DNA from: Sphingomonadaceae bacterium
GTDB lineage: Bacteria; Pseudomonadota; Alphaproteobacteria; Sphingomonadales; Sphingomonadaceae
NCBI GenBank assembly: GCA_021732525.1
Contig: JAKFUU010000035.1
Span: 1 to 63,551, forward strand
Direction: 5' to 3'
Length of the DNA stretch: 63,551 nucleotides
A model generated the notes under the pieces. That model was not told where the DNA came from. It saw nothing but the letters and a program-made list of their open reading frames with translations, and searched no databases. The position numbers and the translations under genes are program-made. This document shows positions 9,887 to 19,530 of the stretch, piece by piece (positions within the stretch are counted from its first letter, which is position 1; each line of letters opens with the position of its first letter).

Positions 9887-10280
9887 ACCGGTTGCGGGTG
9901 ACGTAATCCATTACCGTTATCTTTGGCGGCATGAAGCGGATGCGGGACGCGAAGACGGACGGAAAACCCGTCCCTGCCTTGTCCTTGCAACCCGCGAGTC
10001 GGCCAAAGGACTGGTTGTCCACATTGCGCCAGTAACGACCCAGCATTTTGCCGATGCTGGACATGTTGCGATACCGGATGCCGTTATCCGCCATCTAAGC
10101 CTCGATGCGCGGTCTATCGTCGTGACCAGTGAGTATAACACGTTCGTCTGGATCGGACCCGATGTCTTTCCGCGCGCCGATGGCCTCGTCCATTATGGCA
10201 AAGTGCCGGAGCGCTTGCACGATCAGATTCGAAACGCAGCCATTGCGAAACGCGCCCGAAATATCGTGAGGACTGAGTAG
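9858..10280 (+). CDS. PemK/MazF-like growth-inhibitor toxin
   Basis: Starts with GDVIHYRYLWRHEADAG and continues GRKTRPCLVLA, which resembles the beta-barrel start of PemK/MazF-like ribonuclease toxins. The C-terminus is longer than in classical MazF. No ATG is available near the domain start; GTG 9858, inside the antitoxin's end, is the likeliest start and gives 140 aa. The toxin role rests on the partner gene and the motif, so nuclease activity is inference. Confidence 0.65.
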   Translation: MSPSTPSWTKPVAGDVIHYRYLWRHEADAGREDGRKTRPCLVLATRESAKGLVVHIAPVTTQHFADAGHVAIPDAVIRHLSLDARSIVVTSEYNTFVWIGPDVFPRADGLVHYGKVPERLHDQIRNAAIAKRARNIVRTE

Positions 10281-10472
10281 CCACTGGCGAGGTCTAACAC
10301 TCCTCAACGCAGCGCCATTGCCTATCGATGATCTCGTCGGTCGGATCTGGTATCGAATTTCACCCGTCATGCGAACGTCCTGATCGCCAACTTCGCTTTG
10401 TGTCCCTTCATTGATACTGCCGCATCTGCCCTGGCGTTGCGATGAACCATGCGACGGTCGGGCCGGGGCACA

Positions 10473-10629
10473 ACCGGTAAAGCAGCGGACCGGGAAGCCC
10501 TGCGGGCTTGCCGCACCACTCCTCGCTTTACCGGTTCCCCGCTGCTGGCGCGCGGTGTGCCTCCGTCCCTTGTCCCGCCGCTCCTTCTGTTCATCGCCGG
10601 GCAGTTCCGGCGAGTTTCAACAAGGAGGT
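10473..10629 (+). promoter_or_regulatory. Structured 5' leader of the ssb-like gene
   Basis: The 356-bp gap before the gene holds interlocking inverted repeats: ACCGGTAAAGC (10473-10483) with GCTTTACCGGT (10525-10535), AGCAGCGG (10481-10488) with CCGCTGCT (10539-10546), and the hairpin AAGCCC-TGC-GGGCTT (10495-10509). The first two pairings share bases and exclude each other at the junction. The leader ends in TTTCAACAAGGAGGT. Its 3' block CGGTTCCCC resembles those in the two leaders downstream. Confidence 0.6.
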
Positions 10630-10636
10630 ACATCAC

Positions 10637-10972
10637 ATGAAAAATCTGGTCATTCTCATCGGGCGCATCGCATCGACTCCTGAAACCCGCAACAACGGGA
10701 CCACCAGCATCACCAACTTCACGCTTGTCACCGACCGGCCCAAAATCGTCGAAGGCAAGACCGTCAAGAACGATGCAGGCTATACCGAGACCATTCCGGA
10801 ATTTCACCGCATCACCGTCTTTAACGGCCTCGGCCAGACCGTCGCCAAGCACAAGACCAAGGGCGATATGGTCGAAGTCCAGGGCCGCCTCCATTATTCC
10901 AAATGGACCGACAAGGACCAGATCGACCGTTACTCGGTCGAAATCATCGCCGACGAGGTCCTCTTCCTCTAG
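10637..10972 (+). CDS. Single-stranded DNA-binding protein-like OB-fold protein
   Basis: 111-aa SSB-type OB fold: MKNLVILIGRIASTPETR at the N-terminus, the IPEFHRITVFNGLGQTVAKH block, and GDMVEVQGRLHYSKW. It lacks the long flexible tail and acidic tip of chromosomal SSB, as do several plasmid SSB-like proteins. A strong AAGGAGG lies at 10622-10628. It should coat single-stranded DNA during transfer or repair. Next to other leading-region-type genes, this fits a role in the recipient just after DNA entry. Confidence 0.85.
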   Translation: MKNLVILIGRIASTPETRNNGTTSITNFTLVTDRPKIVEGKTVKNDAGYTETIPEFHRITVFNGLGQTVAKHKTKGDMVEVQGRLHYSKWTDKDQIDRYSVEIIADEVLFL

Positions 10973-10991
10973 GCGAACTGGCCCGGCACAG

Positions 10992-11025
10992 AGCGGCGCT
11001 GCCCATCCGGGCAGTGCCGCTTTTT
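10992..11025 (+). terminator. Rho-independent terminator after the ssb-like gene
   Basis: AGCGGCGCTGCCC pairs with GGGCAGTGCCGCT (one mismatch), with a 4-base loop and a following T run. Confidence 0.8.
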
Positions 11026-11071
11026 GCTGTTGTCTGCTCTTTGCGGCTGCGCATGCGTTCTTCCCATATTG

Positions 11072-11091
11072 GCCAAAATTGCTATTTTGGC
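11072..11091. promoter_or_regulatory. Palindromic operator before the orphan Phd-like gene
   Basis: GCCAAAATTGCTATTTTGGC is an 8-bp perfect inverted repeat around TGCT. It lies 27 bp before the Phd-like start and is the probable autoregulatory site. Confidence 0.6.
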
Positions 11092-11118
11092 AGCAACGAC
11101 AAACAGGGGGATTCGATC

Positions 11119-11337
11119 ATGGCCGAAAATGAGCCGGACGGCGCACCGGCGCGGGTGAGTGTGCCGCTCACCCGCTTTCACAACAATACCGGCGAGTTTC
11201 TTGACCTCGCGCTGGTACAGCCGGTTACGCTCACCAAGCATGACCGGGTCGTGCTCACCATTTGCGAGGCGGGCTATTTCGAGCGTCTTGAGGCCTTCGC
11301 CGCTGCCCATAGCGGCCCGGTGCCGCCGCGTGGCTGA
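11119..11337 (+). CDS. Orphan Phd-like antitoxin
   Basis: 72 aa. RVSVPLTRFHNNTGEFLDLAL and the VTLTKHDRVVLTICEAGYFERL block match the N-terminal DNA-binding fold of Phd/YefM antitoxins. No toxin gene follows; the next 344 bp are a structured leader. It may be an orphan regulator that binds the palindrome upstream, or an antitoxin against a toxin elsewhere. Confidence 0.68.
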   Translation: MAENEPDGAPARVSVPLTRFHNNTGEFLDLALVQPVTLTKHDRVVLTICEAGYFERLEAFAAAHSGPVPPRG

Positions 11338-11493
11338 CAGGGCAGGGACGTTTTGGCGACCAGTCTGAGGTGATTTGCTGTTAACCGGCCCGCCGACGCG
11401 TGCCGGGCAAATCTTTAACTCTCTCTCATCTCGCCATCAGGCTGACGCTTCATCGCCATAGCATGACGCTTGGGTGCTGGCGGCCGTCAAGGA

Positions 11494-11564
11494 CCAGTGG
11501 TTCCCCCAATTTTGCGCATCGGACCGCTTCGCTTGTCCGCGCACAAAATCGGTTCCCCCACTGG
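11494..11564 (+). promoter_or_regulatory. Structured leader element, copy A (before DUF2493)
   Basis: Nested stems are seen: CCAGTGG (11494-11500) with CCACTGG (11558-11564), ATTTTG (11509-11514) with CAAAAT (11544-11549), and GGAC (11521-11524) with GTCC (11535-11538). Unpaired TTCCCCC blocks lie on both sides. The element sits in a 344-bp leader that ends in TTTTCAATTGGAGGT before the ATG. Copy B at 12812 keeps the layout with different paired bases. Confidence 0.65.
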
Positions 11565-11681
11565 CGGGCGGAGCCGCGACGGCGCGTGCCGCGCGTCGTC
11601 CCTGACTGCCTGGCACCAGCGTCCAGTCGATCTCCATCTTTCATCCATCGGGGATGAGAGGGTTTTCAATTGGAGGTTTAT

Positions 11682-12638
11682 ATGTCCCAGCGTTTTTCAA
11701 ACTTCGCCGATCTTGCCGATCATTATGCCGAGCAGGTCGCAAGCCCTGATTATGGCACCGCGTTCATGGAGCAGACCGAGATGGCCCGCCTCTCGATCGC
11801 CGAGGAACCAACCACAGCGGATATGCCCGATCCGGATAAGGCGCAGGCTGCGCTTGAGATGATCATGGCAACGGTCTTCGACCTGTTCCGCGATACCCGC
11901 ATGGAAGATTTCTCAGGCGAGGTTGCATGGGGCATTGCCAACAGCTTCCATGTCGTTGCCAAGCGGCTCGATGACCGGGAGGATGCCGCCAGCCAGAAGC
12001 TTACGGAATTGCTGAAGACCTGGGACCCGTCGGAAGTCTATCAGACCGAGGTCGAGGACCTGACGATGACAGCACGGAGCCTGTCCGAATGCCGTGACGC
12101 AATGGAATGCATGCGCGAACATGCGGCCCGCATCTACCATGTCGAAACCGGCAGGCCGTTCTCTCCGGTGCGCGGATCACGGGTTGCATCAAAAGCCACA
12201 GCATCAATGATTGAAGCGCGCGACTATATCGCCAGTCGTGCCCAACAGCGGCGCGAACAATATGCACCATCAGGGGCCGTCGTTGCCTTTTCAGGCGGGC
12301 AAACATGGGCTGACCATGAACTGATCTGGGAACATCTCGACTGCATCAAGGTGCGAATTCCCTCAATGATCCTCGCCACCACGGCGCAGAACAAGGGCGC
12401 CGATGTGATCGCGGCAAGCTGGGCTGCAAAGAATGACGTGAAAGTCGTGCTGTGCCGTCTCGACCGTGCCTTGGGCAACCGTGCGGCCTTTGTGCGCAAT
12501 GACCGCATCGTTGGCTTCCGTCCGGTGGAAGCGATCGTGTGCAGCGGAACCGGTATCCAGGCCAATCTCGCAGACAAGTTGCGGACCGCAGGCGTGCCGC
12601 TTCACGTCTTGCGCGAGCGTTCGGCGATGCAGGGCTGA
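11682..12638 (+). CDS. DUF2493 (SLOG-superfamily) protein
   Basis: 318 aa. The C-terminal 120 residues, from AVVAFSGGQTWADHELIW through CSGTGIQANLADKLR, are a DUF2493 domain, a Rossmann-like SLOG-superfamily fold thought to bind nucleotide-derived ligands. The first 190 residues are helical and acidic. The start ATG 11682 has GGAGG at 11672-11676. Genes of this family recur on alphaproteobacterial conjugative elements, but their role is not known. Confidence 0.87.
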   Translation: MSQRFSNFADLADHYAEQVASPDYGTAFMEQTEMARLSIAEEPTTADMPDPDKAQAALEMIMATVFDLFRDTRMEDFSGEVAWGIANSFHVVAKRLDDREDAASQKLTELLKTWDPSEVYQTEVEDLTMTARSLSECRDAMECMREHAARIYHVETGRPFSPVRGSRVASKATASMIEARDYIASRAQQRREQYAPSGAVVAFSGGQTWADHELIWEHLDCIKVRIPSMILATTAQNKGADVIAASWAAKNDVKVVLCRLDRALGNRAAFVRNDRIVGFRPVEAIVCSGTGIQANLADKLRTAGVPLHVLRERSAMQG

Positions 12639-12661
12639 TCCACTCACCCATTCATCTATCA

Positions 12662-12699
12662 GGGGTGCCAGGCCTTACGGGTCTGGTGCCCCTTTTTTT
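12662..12699 (+). terminator. Rho-independent terminator after DUF2493
   Basis: GGGGTGCCAG pairs with CTGGTGCCCC and is followed by seven T residues. Confidence 0.88.
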
Positions 12700-12811
12700 G
12701 CCCGTTCGCACATCTAGGGGAACGGGTGACGGGCAGTGCACCCAAACCCAAACACACACTCTCGCAAGACCTCCAAGGATGAAGACCGGAGCTGGCCCGC
12801 CTCAAGGATGC

Positions 12812-12880
12812 GCGGTCCCCCCAATTTTTTCCTCCTCTGCGCTTGCGCTTCGCTCCAGAAAAAATCGGCTCCCCCACGCC
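12812..12880 (+). promoter_or_regulatory. Structured leader element, copy B
   Basis: ATTTTTTC (12824-12831) pairs perfectly with GAAAAAAT (12858-12865). The flanks GGTCCCCCCA and CGGCTCCCCCAC match copy A. The loop contains the GCGCTTGCGCTTCGC run. It lies in a 328-bp leader that ends TTTTCAACAAGGAGGT before the ATG at 12967. Confidence 0.65.
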
Positions 12881-12966
12881 CCGCTGTCGCGGCCTTCGGT
12901 CCTTGACCCGGACCAGCTCCGATCTTCGCTGAAGAAGCCTCTTCGATTTTCAACAAGGAGGTTATC

Positions 12967-13275
12967 ATGTTAGCACTTGCCGTTCAAAATATCGCCGTTT
13001 TCAATCAGCCCGCTTATGACGCAGCCTATCGGACCGCGTCGATCCGGGCCCAGCACAGCTTCTTCGACCAGCACATCGTCGAGGACGAGGAAGCCGGTTT
13101 CATCGCCATCGACGAAGGCGATTATAATGGTCTGGCGCAACATCTGATCGACCGGATCGTCCACACCATCGCCGGGCAAATGGCAGACGATTTCGACCTT
13201 CCCAACTATAGCCGCGTGTCCCATATCGCCGCCGGAATCGACCTCGAATTCGATGCCGATGATTGCCCATTTTGA
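12967..13275 (+). CDS. Hypothetical acidic protein, 102 aa
   Basis: No family recognised. It is very acidic (VEDEEAGFIAIDEGDYN near residue 38, EFDADD at the end), soluble, and translated from a strong AAGGAGG site. Acidic small proteins of leading regions can mimic DNA to block host defences, but there is no sequence evidence for that here beyond charge. A strong terminator follows at once. Confidence 0.72.
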   Translation: MLALAVQNIAVFNQPAYDAAYRTASIRAQHSFFDQHIVEDEEAGFIAIDEGDYNGLAQHLIDRIVHTIAGQMADDFDLPNYSRVSHIAAGIDLEFDADDCPF

Positions 13276-13284
13276 ACGCAGACC

Positions 13285-13319
13285 GGGGGAGGAGCCGAAC
13301 GGCTCCTTCCCCTTTTTTT
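13285..13319 (+). terminator. Rho-independent terminator closing the left accessory block
   Basis: GGGG-(G)-AGGAGCCG pairs with CGGCTCCT-(T)-CCCC around a 2-base loop, followed by seven T residues. Confidence 0.92.
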
Positions 13320-13478
13320 GTACGAAACCAAAAGCCCCGACGCGGCATCGAGCCACGCCGGTGCTTGCCTTCTGGCATTACTATCAGGGCGCCTGTGGGC
13401 CGACCGGTCAATGCCCGCTTCATGACAAACGGACACTTCCGCAAGTGAAAGATCAGCCGACAGGAAAATCTGGGATAG

Positions 13479-13794
13479 AGTGTACACCCTACACTGCGGG
13501 CAGTTTTGAGAAATCCCGGAAATCCGACGGTTTCCAAGTGGTGGCCCAAGCGATCCGCTTGTGTTCGCTCTCCCGTGGGTCGGATAAAGTTATTATATTC
13601 AATTGCTTATGCCGAACACAAGCGAACCGCAAAATTGCATGCTATTTGGTCCGCAGACGAGCTGGAGCAATCGTCTTCCGATGGCGCGCGCATCGACAAA
13701 GAGATCGCGTTGGTGCCTCGTCAAGCCCAGGTGGCGTACCTGGAAACCAGCCATTTAACATCGGCAACAATGTCTAACATTAAAGGTGTTAGAC
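13479..13794. other. Candidate origin of transfer (oriT) region
   Basis: The 600-bp stretch before the ribbon-helix-helix gene has no convincing gene but is dense in inverted repeats. These are AGTGTA-CACCC-TACACT (13479-13495), the perfect 12-bp pair CGCTTGTGTTCG (13556-13567) and CGAACACAAGCG (13613-13624) around an AT-rich 45-bp spacer, and GTCTAACA-N7-TGTTAGAC (13772-13794). It lies next to genes for a DNA-binding accessory protein, TraD and TraI, which is where MobF oriT sites are found. The nic site cannot be identified. Confidence 0.55.
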
Positions 13795-13874
13795 CCGCAT
13801 CAAGCAAAGACCCAAATCACGTCGTTCTTGCAATGGCGACGAACAGACGCTACCAAGAACGCGCGTAAGAACCG

Positions 13875-13896
13875 CCAGCTCCGCAATGGGAGCTGG
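13875..13896 (+). promoter_or_regulatory. Hairpin covering the ribosome site of the RHH gene
   Basis: CCAGCTCC pairs with GGAGCTGG around a 6-base loop. The right arm is the ribosome binding site for the ATG at 13901, so the fold would limit translation. Confidence 0.55.
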
Positions 13897-13900
13897 ATGG

Positions 13901-14182
13901 ATGACATTGATATATGTTCCGCTCAGGCTCAAGCCAGAGCTGCTTCATGAACTCGACACCATAGCCAAGAAACGTGGGAAGCCCCGTGCGCATATCATGC
14001 GCGAAGGGCTGCACTTCTACGCCGAGCGGAACACCATATTATCCGAGATGGAATATCGCCGCCTCATGGCCGACGAGTTTATCTACCTCGCGCTCGACGT
14101 CATCATCCGGGAAAGGCATAACGGCGCCTATCAAAGCATTCTTGAAGAGGCCGCCCAGCGCGCGAAAGCGCTTTGTGCCTAG
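13901..14182 (+). CDS. Ribbon-helix-helix DNA-binding protein, likely relaxosome accessory factor
   Basis: 93 aa. The first 45 residues (a short beta strand TLIYVPLRL, then two helices ELLHELDTIAKKRG and RAHIMREGLHFYAE) form an RHH domain like TraY, Arc or CopG. An acidic helical tail follows. It lies between the oriT candidate and traD, so it probably binds oriT and/or regulates the transfer genes. ATG 13901 is preferred over 13886 because GGGAG lies 8 bp before it. The traD start overlaps its end. Confidence 0.72.
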   Translation: MTLIYVPLRLKPELLHELDTIAKKRGKPRAHIMREGLHFYAERNTILSEMEYRRLMADEFIYLALDVIIRERHNGAYQSILEEAAQRAKALCA

Positions 14183-16532
14183 GCCCGACACCTATTCCGA
14201 TACCGGTCGCTCGGGCAAGCTGACGCATCACTCAGCGCGCGGAGCGATGCCGCGCAATGCGGGAAACTTCACCCGTGGTTCCCAACTGATCACCCATGAA
14301 TTCATGATGTGGTTTGGCTCAGTGCGCATACCGCTTACCGTCTGGTTTTTTCTCTTCCTGATCGCCTTCATGATTACCTCCTTTCTCGTAATCCACGAGA
14401 ATGAGGCGCAGATGATCCTCATGAAAATCTACGCCGCCGGATGGCAGTTCATGGAGTTTAATTCCGCCAAGGTCATCAACCTCACACTGCCTTCAGGCGA
14501 AACAATCCTGGCTCCCGTCAACATGGTAGGCAGCCATCCGGCGGTGATCGATGCCTGGGCGCGGTTGATGCGCGCATTTTGGGGATCTGCTTTCATGTCT
14601 GCCGTTATCGCGGTTCCGCTGACCATCTGGTTTGTCGACTTGTCGCACAAACGCGGGCGCGGGATTCTTGAGGAACGCCACCAGCGCGGCGCGATGCTTG
14701 TCGACGCTGACGACCTTTCGGCTGTGATCGCCGCGCACAATATGGCCGAGTTTGAAAAGGAAGCCCAGCGCTGCTTTCCCAAAAATAGCCTGAGCGAAGT
14801 TCTTGCGATGGATTTCATCAAGCGCAAGCTGTGCGGTGTGCACCATCCCTACGATCTGGCGGGCGTGCGCTACCCTTGGCGCACCGAACAGTCGCACACG
14901 ATGCTCATCGGAACGACCGGGACCGGCAAAACCACGCAGATGCGCGACATGATCGCGCAAATGCGCGCGCGCCAGGATCGGGCCGTCGTCTTCGATCTGA
15001 CCGGGGCCTATGTCGAGGCCTTTTACAACCCGGAAACCGACATCATCCTCAACCCGATGGACAAAAGATGCCCATCATGGTCGGTCTTCCTGGAATGCCA
15101 AAACCATGCCGATTTCAGCAGTGTCGCGGCGGCGCTGATGCCCATCGATGGCGGGGCGTCCGAACCCTTCTGGATCCTCGCCGCGCGCACGCTCTTTGTG
15201 GAAACCTGCGTCCGGCTCAAACAAAAGGGCCAAACGACCAACCGTGATCTTGCGAGCCGGTTGATGATGGCGGACCTCAAAACGGTCCATAAGCTTCTTG
15301 AAAATACCGTGGCCGATCCGCTGACCGCGCCAGAAGCAGCCCGCATGGCAGAATCGATCCGCGCGGTGTTCAACACCAACGCGCAAGCACTCCGCTTTCT
15401 GCCAGAAGACAATCCGCCTTTTTCGATCTGCGACTGGATCGGCAAGACCGACAATCCCGGCAGCATCCTGTTCATTACCTCAACGCATAACGAGCTCGCA
15501 CTCAACCGTGCGCTGCTGACGGTCTGGATGAACCTCGCGGTTCATCGCCTGATGCGGCTACCGCGCACGCGTGATTTGCGAACCTGGTTCTTCTTCGACG
15601 AAGTCCATGCGCTGCACCGCCTGCCGGCGATCGAAGACGGTCTGCAAACAGCGCGCGGATTTGGCGGCGCCTTTGTCCTTGGTATTCACAGTTTTGCAAA
15701 ATTGTCTGAAACCTATGGCGAAGAGGGTGCCCAAAATCTCGCATCGCTTGCCCGGACAAAACTCATTCTCGCAACCGCCGACCGCGACACTGCGGAGCGC
15801 TGCTCGGACTATATCGGTCACCGCGAAGTGCGGATGATGGATGAGGCCTATAGCTATGGTTATTCCAACATCCGCGATGCGGCGACGATTACACCGCGCC
15901 AGCAGGTCGAACCGCTCGTTCTCCCCGATGACATCATGAAATTGCCGTCGCTGCGCGGTTTCCTTGTGTTTCCCGAAGGCTTTGATGCAGCGCGCGTGCA
16001 ACTACACTACCGCGACTTTCCAAGCCTCGCCGCACCTTATGAACCGCGCGAAAATGTTGAGCCGCTGGATTTTCTGGCAGATGATGCCGATGAGGACGGC
16101 GAGAGCGAGGCTGGCGGCCGCGAAGGCAATGCAACGCCTGAAATCCTGATCGAAAATAAGCCAGCAGCCCTTTCCATTCCTGCGCTGCGTACCGGCCTGG
16201 TCGACGAACCCGAACTTGAGGTTCCGAGCGAAGCTGACCCAAAGACCAATCCAACAGCAGCCATATATACCGAGCGCCAGGCCTTTATTGACCGAAGTTT
16301 CAAAGGCGATATCGGCTCAGCTGAAAGCACACGTCATCCCGCTGCAGCTTCCAAGGAAGGGGATGAACAGGCTGGCGCCCATATAGCCGGATCCCGTTGG
16401 CCGCCGGTCCAGGATCAGTACCGCCTTGATCTGGCCCGCCGCGAACTCGGCGAAACGCTCGAACCCGAAAGCCGGAGCGAACGCAGCGTAACCGCACCCG
16501 ACATAGGCCAAGCTGACGGACCGGAGTTGTAG
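14175..16532 (+). CDS. traD: Type IV coupling protein TraD
   Basis: VirD4-class inner-membrane ATPase that brings the relaxase-DNA complex to the mating channel. Two membrane helices (VWFFLFLIAFMITSFLVI, and FMSAVIAVPLTIWFV) precede the ATPase domain. Walker A is GTTGTGKTT near residue 245, Walker B is WFFFDEVHAL near residue 475, and an acidic hydrophilic tail ends the 785-aa chain. The start is uncertain: GTG 14175 overlaps the previous stop, while ATG 14247 would give a start at MPRNAGNFTRG, the usual TraD beginning. traI follows 4 bp downstream. Confidence 0.93.
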   Translation: MPRPDTYSDTGRSGKLTHHSARGAMPRNAGNFTRGSQLITHEFMMWFGSVRIPLTVWFFLFLIAFMITSFLVIHENEAQMILMKIYAAGWQFMEFNSAKVINLTLPSGETILAPVNMVGSHPAVIDAWARLMRAFWGSAFMSAVIAVPLTIWFVDLSHKRGRGILEERHQRGAMLVDADDLSAVIAAHNMAEFEKEAQRCFPKNSLSEVLAMDFIKRKLCGVHHPYDLAGVRYPWRTEQSHTMLIGTTGTGKTTQMRDMIAQMRARQDRAVVFDLTGAYVEAFYNPETDIILNPMDKRCPSWSVFLECQNHADFSSVAAALMPIDGGASEPFWILAARTLFVETCVRLKQKGQTTNRDLASRLMMADLKTVHKLLENTVADPLTAPEAARMAESIRAVFNTNAQALRFLPEDNPPFSICDWIGKTDNPGSILFITSTHNELALNRALLTVWMNLAVHRLMRLPRTRDLRTWFFFDEVHALHRLPAIEDGLQTARGFGGAFVLGIHSFAKLSETYGEEGAQNLASLARTKLILATADRDTAERCSDYIGHREVRMMDEAYSYGYSNIRDAATITPRQQVEPLVLPDDIMKLPSLRGFLVFPEGFDAARVQLHYRDFPSLAAPYEPRENVEPLDFLADDADEDGESEAGGREGNATPEILIENKPAALSIPALRTGLVDEPELEVPSEADPKTNPTAAIYTERQAFIDRSFKGDIGSAESTRHPAAASKEGDEQAGAHIAGSRWPPVQDQYRLDLARRELGETLEPESRSERSVTAPDIGQADGPEL

Positions 16533-16536
16533 CGCC

Positions 16537-19530
16537 ATGCACTCGATTGCTCCAGTTCGTTCCTCCGGTGGTGCCGCAACCTATTTTGCCCAGGACAATT
16601 ATTACACAGCCGAGGAGAACGCGGAAAAGGGAGTCTGGGGCGGTGCAGGCGCGCGCGATCTGGGGCTCGAGGGCATGGTCGACAAGGAGATGTTTGAAGC
16701 CGTGCTCAACGGACATTTGCCGAACGGCGAGAAGGTCGGGCAGGTTGAGGGCAGGCGGGCAGGTCTCGATCTCACTTTTTCAATGCCCAAATCAGCCTCG
16801 GTCATGGCCTATGTTGCAGGCGATGACCGCATTCTTGGCGCCAATATGCGCGCGGTCGAGAAAACCATGTCCTTTGTCGAGCGCTCCTATGCCGAAGCCA
16901 GGGTCTACGACCGGAACCGCAATGGCGAACCGCAAAAGACCGGCAAGCTTGTCTATGCGCTGTTCCCCCATGACACGAGCCGTGCGCTCGACCCGCAGGG
17001 TCATATCCATGCCGTCGTCGCCAATGTCACTCGGTTGGCGAACGGCAGCTGGAAGGCGCTGTGGAACGGCGAAATCTGGAAGAACAACACCGTTATCGGT
17101 CAAGTCTATCACGCCGCTTTGCGCACCGAACTGCTAACGCTGGGCTATGAAACCGAAGCGGCGGGGAAACATGGCGGTTTTGAAATCAAGGGCGTGCCCA
17201 AAGAGGTTCGCGACGAATTTTCCAAACGCCAGCAGGTGATTGACGACAAGGCCCGCGCGCTCGGAATTCGATCGCCGCAGGGACGCGACCAGGTGGTCAT
17301 CAACACCCGTGATGACAAACGCGTGGTTGAAGATCGCGGCGCACTGGTTGCAAGCTGGAAGGACCGTGCCCAAGCATTGGGCTTTGACGGGGCAGCCCTT
17401 CAAAAGGCGGCGCGCGAGGCCGCGCAAGACAGTCAAGCATCGGGTCGGACGGGTTCGGCCGCTACGACCATGGCCGATTTGATCGACCGGTTGGGCGGGT
17501 TGCTGCGACCGAGCGATCCACTGGTGGCGTCGGGTGCAGCCGCACTCTTCATGCCAGCGGACACGATCAAGGCGCAGCATGCGGTTGCCTCGGCTGTCCG
17601 GCATTTATCGGAGCGCGAAGCTGCCTTTTCGCAAGGCGAGATCATCAAAACCGCGCTCGGCTTCCAGATCAAGGGCGTCGAAGTAGAGCGCGTTACAAAG
17701 CGCATTACAGAATTGATTGGCGCGGGCCGGCTCATTCCAGGCGTATCGGACAGGGCCGATGGCCATGTCGATCTGGTGACAACGCCTGCAGCGCTCGCCA
17801 TGGAACAGGCCATTCTCGAGCATATCGATGCCGGCAAGGGCCAAGGCCGTGTCATCCTCTCTCCGGACAAGGTGCTCGATCGGCTGCAGGAGGCTGCAGG
17901 CGACCGCTTACTTAATGCCGGGCAAACCGCAGCCGCGCTGATGATCCTGTCGTCAGGCGACCGTTCAACGCTGATCCAGGGCGTTGCCGGTGCCGGCAAA
18001 TCGACGATGATCAATGCCGTTGCCCGCGCCGCTGAAAGTGAAGGCGTCCGTGTCCTTGGCTTGGCATTTCAGAACAAGATGGTCGCTGACCTGCGCGGCC
18101 CGGATCAAACAGATGGCGGACGAGGAGAGGGCATTGAGGCGCAAACCATCGCCTCCTTCATAGGCCGCTATGGTGGCCTCGTCAGCCGGGGCGCGGGTGC
18201 AAAATTCGAGGCGGCCCGCGGTGAGCTCAAGAACACGGTCCTCCTGGTCGATGAATCCTCGATGGTCTCATCGCGTGATATGTTGCGGCTTAGCGAAATC
18301 GCCAGGGCTTTCGCGCTCGACGGTCTCCATTTCATCGGCGATCGCCAGCAATTGTCTGCCATCGAACAGGGCAAGAGCTTTGCTGTCGCGCAAGCGGCAG
18401 GGTCGCCGATGGCGCGGATGGACGAGAATATTCGCCAGCGCAATTCGCCACTTCTGCTGGCGGTCGCAGGACTGTCGAACGAGGGCTTTGCCGCCCAGGC
18501 GCTCGATCTGCTGGCAGCCCATGGCCGCGTCATCGAGGATGGCAAGGATCATGTCGCAAAGGCTGCGGAAATATGGCTGGGGCTGTCACCCGAGGCGCGC
18601 GAGCGCACCGCCATATTTACAGCCGGGCGCGACGATCGGGCACAAATCAACCAGATGGTGCAAAAAGGGTTGCTGAAGGAAGGACGGCTTTCCGGCGAAG
18701 GTCATCGGGTTACGACGCTCCAAAGCGTCAATGCGAGCCGCGAAGAATTCCGGTATGCCTCGACCTATCGGACCGGGCAGATCTTCGAGGTGCGCAGGGC
18801 CGTTTCTGAAATTGGCCTGGTCAAAGGAAATTATACCGTCACCGGCATCGACCAGCGCGGACGGGTCGCGCTGAGCGACGGCCGCAAGACATTTAAATTC
18901 GACCCACAGCGCATCGATCCCCAAAATCGTCATGACCGCATGGCGCTGTCCGAACGCGTCGCGCTCAAACTTCACGATGGCGAGACGATTTTGTGGCGCG
19001 AGCGCGATTCCGCGCGCGGAATCGAAAAGTCGACCTATGCCAAAGTTCTGAAAGCCGACGGCGACGGCATAACCGTCGAACTCGCAGACAAACGCCAACT
19101 CATGCTCCTCAGTGGCGACCCAATGCTTGCCAAACTCGACCTTGGCTATGCGCTCAACGCCCATATGGCACAGGGCATGACCAAGCCCGAGAGCATCGAG
19201 GTGATTGGCTCCTACCAGCGCAACCTTGCCACCCAGCGCACACAAAATGTGCTCAACACAAGGGCGACCGACGACATCAAGGTGGTGACCGACAATCTCG
19301 ACCGGTTGAAGACGCAGCTCGATCGCACCCCCGGCAACAAGACCTCGGCACTCGAGACGCTGGGCCATCTTGCCGTCGATCCCAAACCCGCTGAGCTCAT
19401 CCGCAAGGGCGAAGTACCGCCGCTCGCGATGAGCCCGGAGCTGCTTGCCAAGATCGAGGCGCTGCGCCCGGCGCCCGAGCCGCGCGCTTTGCCGGTGCCT
19501 GAGAAGAAACTCGGGCTCGACCTCATGTGA
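16537..19530 (+). CDS. traI: MobF relaxase-helicase TraI
   Basis: Nicks oriT and unwinds the transferred strand. The N-terminus closely follows F TraI: candidate catalytic Tyr residues Y16, Y22 and Y23 (TYFAQDNYY), the metal-binding histidines H145, H156 and H158 (FPHDTSR and GHIHAVVANV), then a TrwC relaxase domain to about residue 300. A RecD-like SF1 helicase follows, with Walker A GVAGAGKST near residue 482 and LLVDESSMVS. At 997 aa it is much shorter than F TraI (about 1750) and close to TrwC, so it lacks F's second, inactive helicase copy and long C-terminal region. Confidence 0.96.
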   Translation: MHSIAPVRSSGGAATYFAQDNYYTAEENAEKGVWGGAGARDLGLEGMVDKEMFEAVLNGHLPNGEKVGQVEGRRAGLDLTFSMPKSASVMAYVAGDDRILGANMRAVEKTMSFVERSYAEARVYDRNRNGEPQKTGKLVYALFPHDTSRALDPQGHIHAVVANVTRLANGSWKALWNGEIWKNNTVIGQVYHAALRTELLTLGYETEAAGKHGGFEIKGVPKEVRDEFSKRQQVIDDKARALGIRSPQGRDQVVINTRDDKRVVEDRGALVASWKDRAQALGFDGAALQKAAREAAQDSQASGRTGSAATTMADLIDRLGGLLRPSDPLVASGAAALFMPADTIKAQHAVASAVRHLSEREAAFSQGEIIKTALGFQIKGVEVERVTKRITELIGAGRLIPGVSDRADGHVDLVTTPAALAMEQAILEHIDAGKGQGRVILSPDKVLDRLQEAAGDRLLNAGQTAAALMILSSGDRSTLIQGVAGAGKSTMINAVARAAESEGVRVLGLAFQNKMVADLRGPDQTDGGRGEGIEAQTIASFIGRYGGLVSRGAGAKFEAARGELKNTVLLVDESSMVSSRDMLRLSEIARAFALDGLHFIGDRQQLSAIEQGKSFAVAQAAGSPMARMDENIRQRNSPLLLAVAGLSNEGFAAQALDLLAAHGRVIEDGKDHVAKAAEIWLGLSPEARERTAIFTAGRDDRAQINQMVQKGLLKEGRLSGEGHRVTTLQSVNASREEFRYASTYRTGQIFEVRRAVSEIGLVKGNYTVTGIDQRGRVALSDGRKTFKFDPQRIDPQNRHDRMALSERVALKLHDGETILWRERDSARGIEKSTYAKVLKADGDGITVELADKRQLMLLSGDPMLAKLDLGYALNAHMAQGMTKPESIEVIGSYQRNLATQRTQNVLNTRATDDIKVVTDNLDRLKTQLDRTPGNKTSALETLGHLAVDPKPAELIRKGEVPPLAMSPELLAKIEALRPAPEPRALPVPEKKLGLDLM

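Follow-up and report, generated by a model that had tools for sequence, protein, structure and literature searches.

Frpo1 and Frpo2 of the F plasmid are single-stranded promoters that are needed in vivo for the early expression of leading genes, and expression from the entering strand was shown for F (excerpts of PMC9849209) and proposed for its relatives. Here we describe a family of hairpin elements of about 160 nucleotides (nt) present in a stretch of 63,551 nt from a Sphingomonadaceae bacterium (GenBank assembly GCA_021732525.1, contig JAKFUU010000035.1; the whole stretch is called the window below). Three genes of the window, encoding an ssb-like protein, a DUF2493 protein and a protein of 102 amino acids (aa), follow leaders that we call copies C, A and B, respectively. 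By computation, we found the family itself, covariation within it, the strand that carries the fold, an orientation to relaxase genes and to a nic motif, columns resembling -35 and -10 boxes, and a predicted opening at position -11. From computation alone, we consider it probable that these elements are Frpo-like single-stranded-DNA promoters of leading-region genes.

The elements resemble Frpo in position, strand, fold and box-like columns, and lie outside the Frpo sequence family. Frpo1 and Frpo2 (ssi) of F are leading-region hairpins of the transferred strand whose fold contains -35 and -10 boxes (excerpts of PMC9849209 and PMC11541004); the present elements appear to share this arrangement, with box-like sequences. 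In the F layout the leading genes lie on the strand of traM and run toward it, which matches the gene layout seen here; the apical stem is A/T-rich and ssb is among the genes served, again as with Frpo. The Frpo2 fold is similarly long and has internal loops. Unlike Frpo, the elements described here have a purine internal loop and other boxes, measure about 160 nt and belong to alphaproteobacterial plasmids with relaxases of the TrwC or MobA_MobL type. The covariance model R1, built from the family, gave a best score of 9.9 bits (expectation value, E, 0.26) on the F leading region, and a rhizobial copy compared by blastn with 5,426 E. coli genomes gave no match.

Samuel et al. 2024 searched by similarity (BLAST) to five known Frpo/ssi and for boxes in four islands (excerpts of PMC11541004); their Frpo' and Frpo* were, like the present elements, predicted from folds with -35 and -10 boxes upstream of leading-region genes. 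The main text of that paper makes no mention of Alphaproteobacteria, Rhizobi, Agrobacterium or Sphingo. A 2026 survey ran the 18 Samuel et al. sequences by BLAST on PLSDB, and its main text makes no mention of Alphaproteobacteria or Rhizobi (PMC12826799, main text). No report of single-stranded promoters in Alphaproteobacteria was found in the literature searched, which mostly excluded subscription papers and supplements; in the sole paper pairing Frpo with Rhizobi, Frpo was the name of a primer. The minus-strand origin of M13-type phages is primed by RNA polymerase, which appears to recognise promoter-like boxes on a single strand that has folded; unlike the present elements this is a phage replication origin.

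By their sequence, copies A and B are members of the 160-nt family. An earlier note on this DNA had claimed that they share the order CCCCCAATTTT, a variable hairpin, then AAAATCGG(T/C)TCCCCCAC. This was confirmed by direct reading (11503-11559 in A, 12818-12875 in B) and by a strict pattern, which had two matches in the bacterium's own genome, both on one strand, with none on the other strand and none for a reversed-pattern control. Three stems are common to both copies as well: the outer one (GTCAAGGA/TCCYTGAC), one in the middle and an A/T stem at the apex. The shared unit proposed earlier stands, with wider bounds that take in the outer stem:
11454..11630, minus strand (folded and presumably transferred): copy A, whole element, R1 score 101.4 bits
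11503..11559, minus strand: copy A apical hairpin with conserved flanks GGGGGAACCGATTTT...AAAATTGGGGG, from pattern match and fold
11485..11490, minus strand: copy A -35-like hexamer TTGACG, from column conservation in the alignment
11460..11465, minus strand: copy A -10-like hexamer CATGCT, spacer 19, with columns -11A and -7T at least 90% conserved
11598..11606, plus strand: copy A outer stem, right (template-side) arm GTCCCTGAC, located in the fold
12770..12931, minus strand: copy B, whole element, R1 score 116.9 bits
12818..12875, minus strand: copy B apical hairpin with conserved flanks, from pattern match and fold
12800..12805, minus strand: copy B -35-like hexamer TTGAGG, located in the fold
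12776..12781, minus strand: copy B -10-like hexamer CATCCT, spacer 18, with a pairing probability of 0.94 at -12 and 0.10 at -11
12899..12907, plus strand: copy B outer stem, right arm GTCCTTGAC, located in the fold

The next best R1 score in the window was 10.4 bits, against which the scores of B and A are not independent, since both are among the 52 training sequences. The related context of the ribosome sites, also claimed earlier, was found as well: B and C have TTTCAACAAGGAGGT, inside a 19-nt repeat at 95%, and A has TTTCAATTGGAGGT.

A pattern scan over one genome per species gave at least 120 stretches matching CCCCAATTTT-N15-40-AAAATCGGNTCCCC. Among the matches listed, all genus-named titles are alphaproteobacterial (Rhizobiales, Acetobacteraceae, Sphingomonadales, Paracoccus). 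These stretches, together with the window and two plasmid regions, formed the locus set for the family counts. A similar pattern had 140 matches in this set, 115 of them distinct, and a relaxed pattern marked 141 places. For R1, the 106 places with both outer arms were reduced to 96 with a short right part (10 longer ones dropped), then to 53 by dropping 43 redundant sequences, and L057 was left out, giving 52 aligned sequences.

R1, a covariance model of the sort proposed in the earlier note but built from A, B and their relatives, found further copies in other genomes; many copies exist upstream of plasmid genes elsewhere, the absence of which the note had named as a refutation. Counting the own genome each time, matches were present in 12/385 genomes of a class sample (E 0.001) and in 21/398 genomes of a phylum sample (E 0.01), all 21 belonging to the same class, in a sample whose share of genomes outside that class is not stated. 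In 40 genomes picked from loci already known to carry the element, R1 counted 139 copies, with between 1 and 13 in each genome. Among 72,556 plasmid records, 727 had a match to a single rhizobial query, and in 445 of these the match spanned 80% or more of the query. Rfam had no match in the window, nor at any element in 16 loci. When E values up to 1 were allowed, seven sub-threshold matches appeared in six loci, all away from the elements. The own genome holds four R1 copies, and its further copies are on large contigs (G000:C2:209804-209970, L127, with a frame that looks ssb-like by eye close to it; G000:C1:34281-34431, L128). The single genome of Novosphingobium naphthalenivorans (G410, L050) carries 13 element copies along with six matches to TrwC-type relaxases, and plasmid pNL1 of Novosphingobium aromaticivorans carries two copies of the element.

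A start codon preceded by a Shine-Dalgarno (SD) site followed downstream, on the side searched, in 133 of the 141 relaxed-pattern places, the other eight being close to the end of their locus. Most of these codons began 85-150 nt beyond the matched sequence; a few, at 176-305 nt, are mechanical picks. Where there was enough flank (111 distinct places), first genes were taken if complete and if they started 80-160 nt away. The resulting 105 genes fall in 10 families (BLASTP, E 1e-3), the largest of which has 44 members, mostly of 45-60 aa (e.g. M..HIEELRAEL.., L003:4861-5010). By eye, the SD site often lies inside a small hairpin, CCTTTCGTC..GCGAAAGGAG (L011, L098, L104), which may add translational control.

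The strand that carries the fold was identified from the alignment. RNAalifold on the minus strand gave a consensus structure of 26 pairs, in which 95.6% of 1343 cells were paired and 11 pairs had double changes. The covariation score was 0.285, compared with 0.098 for shuffled and at most 0.048 for slid alignments, though the score is somewhat flattered, since this alignment also supplied the structure that was scored. Mismatches fell unequally on the two strands. Counted by anchors on the plus strand, position 5 of the outer stem was A.C in 72/106, A-T in 33/106 and never G.T, and position 3 of the middle stem was C.A in 45/110, C-G in 46/110, T-A in 13/110 and never G.T. Over 15 anchored stem positions, the gene strand had 140 A.C against 18 G.T. 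Over the 26 aligned pairs, the minus strand had 118 G.T against 11 A.C cells, or 68 against 11 without the pattern-fixed pairs. The internal loop is all-pyrimidine on the plus strand (TYCCC x YTCCC) and all-purine on the minus strand (GGGRA x GGGAR). The predicted fold energy was lower on the minus strand in 53/53 sequences, about half of the asymmetry being composition (-5.1 kcal/mol shuffled vs -11.1 observed), and random stretches of the window differed by -0.3. Because G.T is kept on the minus strand where the plus strand has A.C, the folded strand can be read as the minus strand. Pairing is therefore preserved on the strand that is not the mRNA, which favours single-stranded DNA over an mRNA leader. 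As a correction to the earlier note, the conservation of A and B sits on the strand opposite the genes. The shared control that the note proposed is supported, and of its two options, RNA or folded single-stranded DNA, the A.C and G.T counts favour the second and disfavour the first.

The position of the elements relative to transfer genes agrees with this strand. Of the 139 elements in the 40 genomes, 67 were on the same contig as a TrwC or MobA_MobL relaxase. Within 25 kb of the relaxase, 63 of 64 elements drive genes toward it, on its strand; grouped by contig and relaxase, 39 of 40 do so. The one element that does not, on G422:C4, agrees with another relaxase (TrwC) of that contig, 9.3 kb off, and two of the three elements more than 25 kb from a relaxase also fit. 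Omitted from this count were 11 MobA_MobL rows (fragments or weak), none on an element-bearing contig. The motif GACGTATAATTGCGCCCT, which we take to be the Ti-type nic motif and which resembles the RSF1010 nic (TGCG/CCCT), occurred 14 times in 10/40 genomes, compared with 0 for a reversed control; a first word scan had given seven matches, all in one orientation. In 14/14 elements at most 15 kb from this motif (10 contigs, compared by hand), the folded strand is the motif strand and the element lies 3.7-9.6 kb 3' of it. Going by this motif, the strand that folds would be the one transferred, and the elements would lie in its leading region. Other nic words were set aside: the RSF1010 word and R388-like words had 0 matches, and the short word TAAGNGCGC had 11 uninformative ones (6 and 5 per strand). 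A nic site was also sought in the literature and not found.

On the minus strand, the 3' arm of the stem carries TCCTTGAC (TTGAC) followed by a hexamer of the form YANNNT, whose -11A and -7T columns are each conserved in at least 90% of the alignment. At least four of six letters matched TATAAT in 59/106 sequences, compared with a mean of 15.5 and a maximum of 29 in letter shuffles and with 4/106 on the opposite arm. A hexamer score weighted for YANNNT reached 4 or more in 104/105 (28, 60 and 57 in three control windows), and predicted pairing fell from 0.70 at -12 to 0.22 at -11 (104/105), a drop seen in none of the three control windows; the form of the box and the range of offsets were settled with these sequences already in view. 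In the window, pairing was predicted to fall from 0.94 to 0.10 in B, from 0.93 to 0.47 in A and from 0.97 to 0.01 in C. The stem-loop on the presumed transferred strand may thus be said to hold -35- and -10-like boxes, which are weak and have variable spacers. By eye, a tract CTCTCTCTGAC (GAGAGAG on the folded strand) recurs after the -10 hexamer, on the side away from the gene (L011, L023, L056).

We infer the recruitment of RNA polymerase, its start sites and the timing of expression as follows. Upon plasmid entry, the transferred strand (minus in the window) would fold into a long hairpin in the recipient. The 3' arm of this hairpin would provide the non-template -35 (TTGAC) and -10 (YANNNT) boxes and the 5' arm the template, continuing into the gene. 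The duplex would stop at or near -12 and leave the -10 box open, like a pre-melted (fork-junction) promoter, and the A/T stem AAAATT/AATTTT, about 20 nt above the -35 box, could play the part of an UP element. If transcription begins 6-7 nt beyond the -10 box on the template arm, our own arithmetic puts the RNA polymerase start about 28 nt upstream of the start codon in B and, provided that the nearer of two repeats pairs, about 47 nt upstream of it in A. The ssb gene, the DUF2493 gene and the 102-aa gene would be expressed ahead of the second strand. Conversion to double-stranded DNA would abolish the fold, and the promoter would exist in single-stranded DNA only. Transcript starts just downstream of the element, which the earlier note counted as refuting, would be expected here.

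Several observations weigh against a single-stranded-DNA promoter. At one anchored stem position the wobbles point to the gene strand instead (10 G.T, 1 A.C), part of the energy asymmetry is owed to composition, and the boxes and offsets were chosen with hindsight. In copy A, the -11 opening is weaker, as two GCGTC repeats compete. The spacer between TTGACN and the -10 hexamer was 15 nt in 34/104 sequences, 19 in 22, 17 in 19, 20 in 15 and another length in 14, so that spacers of 16-18 nt were found in just 29/104. The sphingomonad -10 boxes CATGCT and CATCCT bear little resemblance to TATAAT. When both strands of 10200-13300 were scanned for consensus promoters, 0 sites were called, with 0.9 expected by chance, so that neither the proposed boxes nor a conventional promoter was picked up. 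On the F plasmid, our box scan gave one chance match in the Frpo2 AT stem and none in the presumed Frpo1. Since this control on F failed, it is conservation, position and fold that carry the promoter reading, rather than a validated scan. As for orientation, 72 of the 139 elements are on contigs without a relaxase match, one of the three elements more than 25 kb from a relaxase points away from it, and the element on G409:C15, 82 kb off, is on the same strand as the nic motif but on its other side. Finally, both the motif and the strand that it marks as cleaved are presumed.

We considered the possibility of a cis-regulatory mRNA leader, with the fold forming in the untranslated RNA at the 5' end of each gene and governing its transcription or translation. 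The strong covariation, the fairly constant place before start codons, the many SD sites seen by eye within small hairpins and the stem position with 10 G.T would all suit such a leader. Yet most of the variable pairs are lost on the mRNA strand, the internal loop would be all-pyrimidine in the mRNA, and Rfam matches none of the elements examined. We therefore rejected an mRNA leader or riboswitch on the wobble test and the loop, and give it hardly any credence. If instead a small or antisense RNA from the minus strand carried the structure, G.U wobble would be equally permitted, and RNA energies favour that strand too (53/53). We regard this as quite unlikely, as it leaves the orientation to the nicked strand unexplained, the sole conserved promoter-like boxes are at the 3' end of the element and no sigma-70-type promoter was found on either strand of 10200-13300 (weak evidence, given the chance expectation above).

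The boxes might also form an ordinary leftward promoter in double-stranded DNA (TTGAC and -10 on the minus strand) to which the hairpin is unrelated. In double-stranded form they do point away from the gene, and Agrobacterium pusense has an HU-like gene that reads leftward and begins some 180 nt from its copy of the element. However, left-hand open reading frames, taken mechanically at the 69 of 111 loci with enough flank, had no common orientation (36 plus, 27 minus, 6 none), those considered in the window run rightward, and neither the covariation nor the -11 opening would be explained, which makes this very unlikely. An improbable alternative, though less so than the others, is a single-strand initiation site, like ssi, M13 or sso origins, that mainly primes the second strand rather than expressing genes. 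RNA polymerase on the folded strand would serve both roles, which are compatible with each other, but the position of most copies 85-150 nt ahead of an SD-bearing start codon and the presence of up to 13 copies per genome fit gene expression better.

Copy C, ahead of the ssb-like gene, looks like a diverged second class of element by its sequence features, and we hold this with less confidence than the placement of A and B:
10446..10473, minus (folded) strand: copy C candidate promoter TTGTGC-N16-CATGGT, with -11A predicted unpaired (0.01)
10472..10536, no strand assigned: copy C main hairpin, inverted repeat I12, from an alignment of three ssb leaders

The stem arms of this hairpin are 10472-10483 and 10525-10536. 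The kinship with A and B claimed in the earlier note is borne out by CGGTTCCCC at the end of the stem and is not borne out by R1, the A/B model, which gives no match at copy C. On the minus strand, TTGYGN-N16-YANNNT was present in 5/5 ssb leaders (the window, Croceicoccus p1, pMI2, pF2 and pCAR3), having been read off the same five, which are close kin except for the window and pMI2. In all five leaders examined, -11A was predicted to be unpaired (0.00-0.01). The pMI2 leader retains CCCCCGATTTT...AAAAATCG and GGTTCCCC. On the Croceicoccus plasmid, a match to the suhB/mmgR small-RNA family (51.2 bits, E 2.9e-7) lies directly behind ssb (L155:3441-3517).

Returning to the single-stranded-DNA promoter, we think it fairly likely that plasmids of Alphaproteobacteria, both those with TrwC-type (MOBF) and those with MobA_MobL-type relaxases, have their own family of such promoters, unrelated to Frpo in sequence. 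These would be of the fork-junction kind, in which the duplex runs as far as -12 and the non-template arm presents -11A unpaired and the -10 box open; a second class, at ssb, would leave -11A unpaired in a mostly paired stem. If so, early expression from the single strand would reach well past F, to the conjugative plasmids that rhizobia, agrobacteria, acetic-acid bacteria and sphingomonads carry. The elements would serve as signposts to leading regions and to establishment genes of unknown function, and their natural variants could be used to ask how a promoter on folded single-stranded DNA is opened by RNA polymerase.

The window's own nic site was searched for and not found. By gene order alone, the block around the copies resembles a leading region, in which it would presumably lie:
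10637..10972, plus strand: ssb-like gene, 111 aa, behind copy C (Pfam SSB, E 2.5e-21)
11682..12638, plus strand: DUF2493/YAcAr SLOG-family gene, 318 aa, behind copy A (Pfam YAcAr, E 1.4e-21)
12967..13275, plus strand: 102-aa gene behind copy B, no Pfam match
13276..13885, no strand assigned: intergenic, putative origin of transfer (oriT) region, from its position upstream of the RHH-TraD-TraI genes
13886-14182, ahead of the relaxase gene: RHH accessory gene (Pfam RHH_1, E 3.2e-05)
14247-16532, ahead of the relaxase gene: TrwB/TraD-type coupling protein (Pfam TrwB_AAD_bind, E 6.5e-163)
16537..19530, plus strand: MOBF (TrwC-type) relaxase (Pfam TrwC, E 1.9e-81)

Inside the putative oriT region, there is an 18-nt inverted repeat (89%) at 13550-13567/13613-13630.

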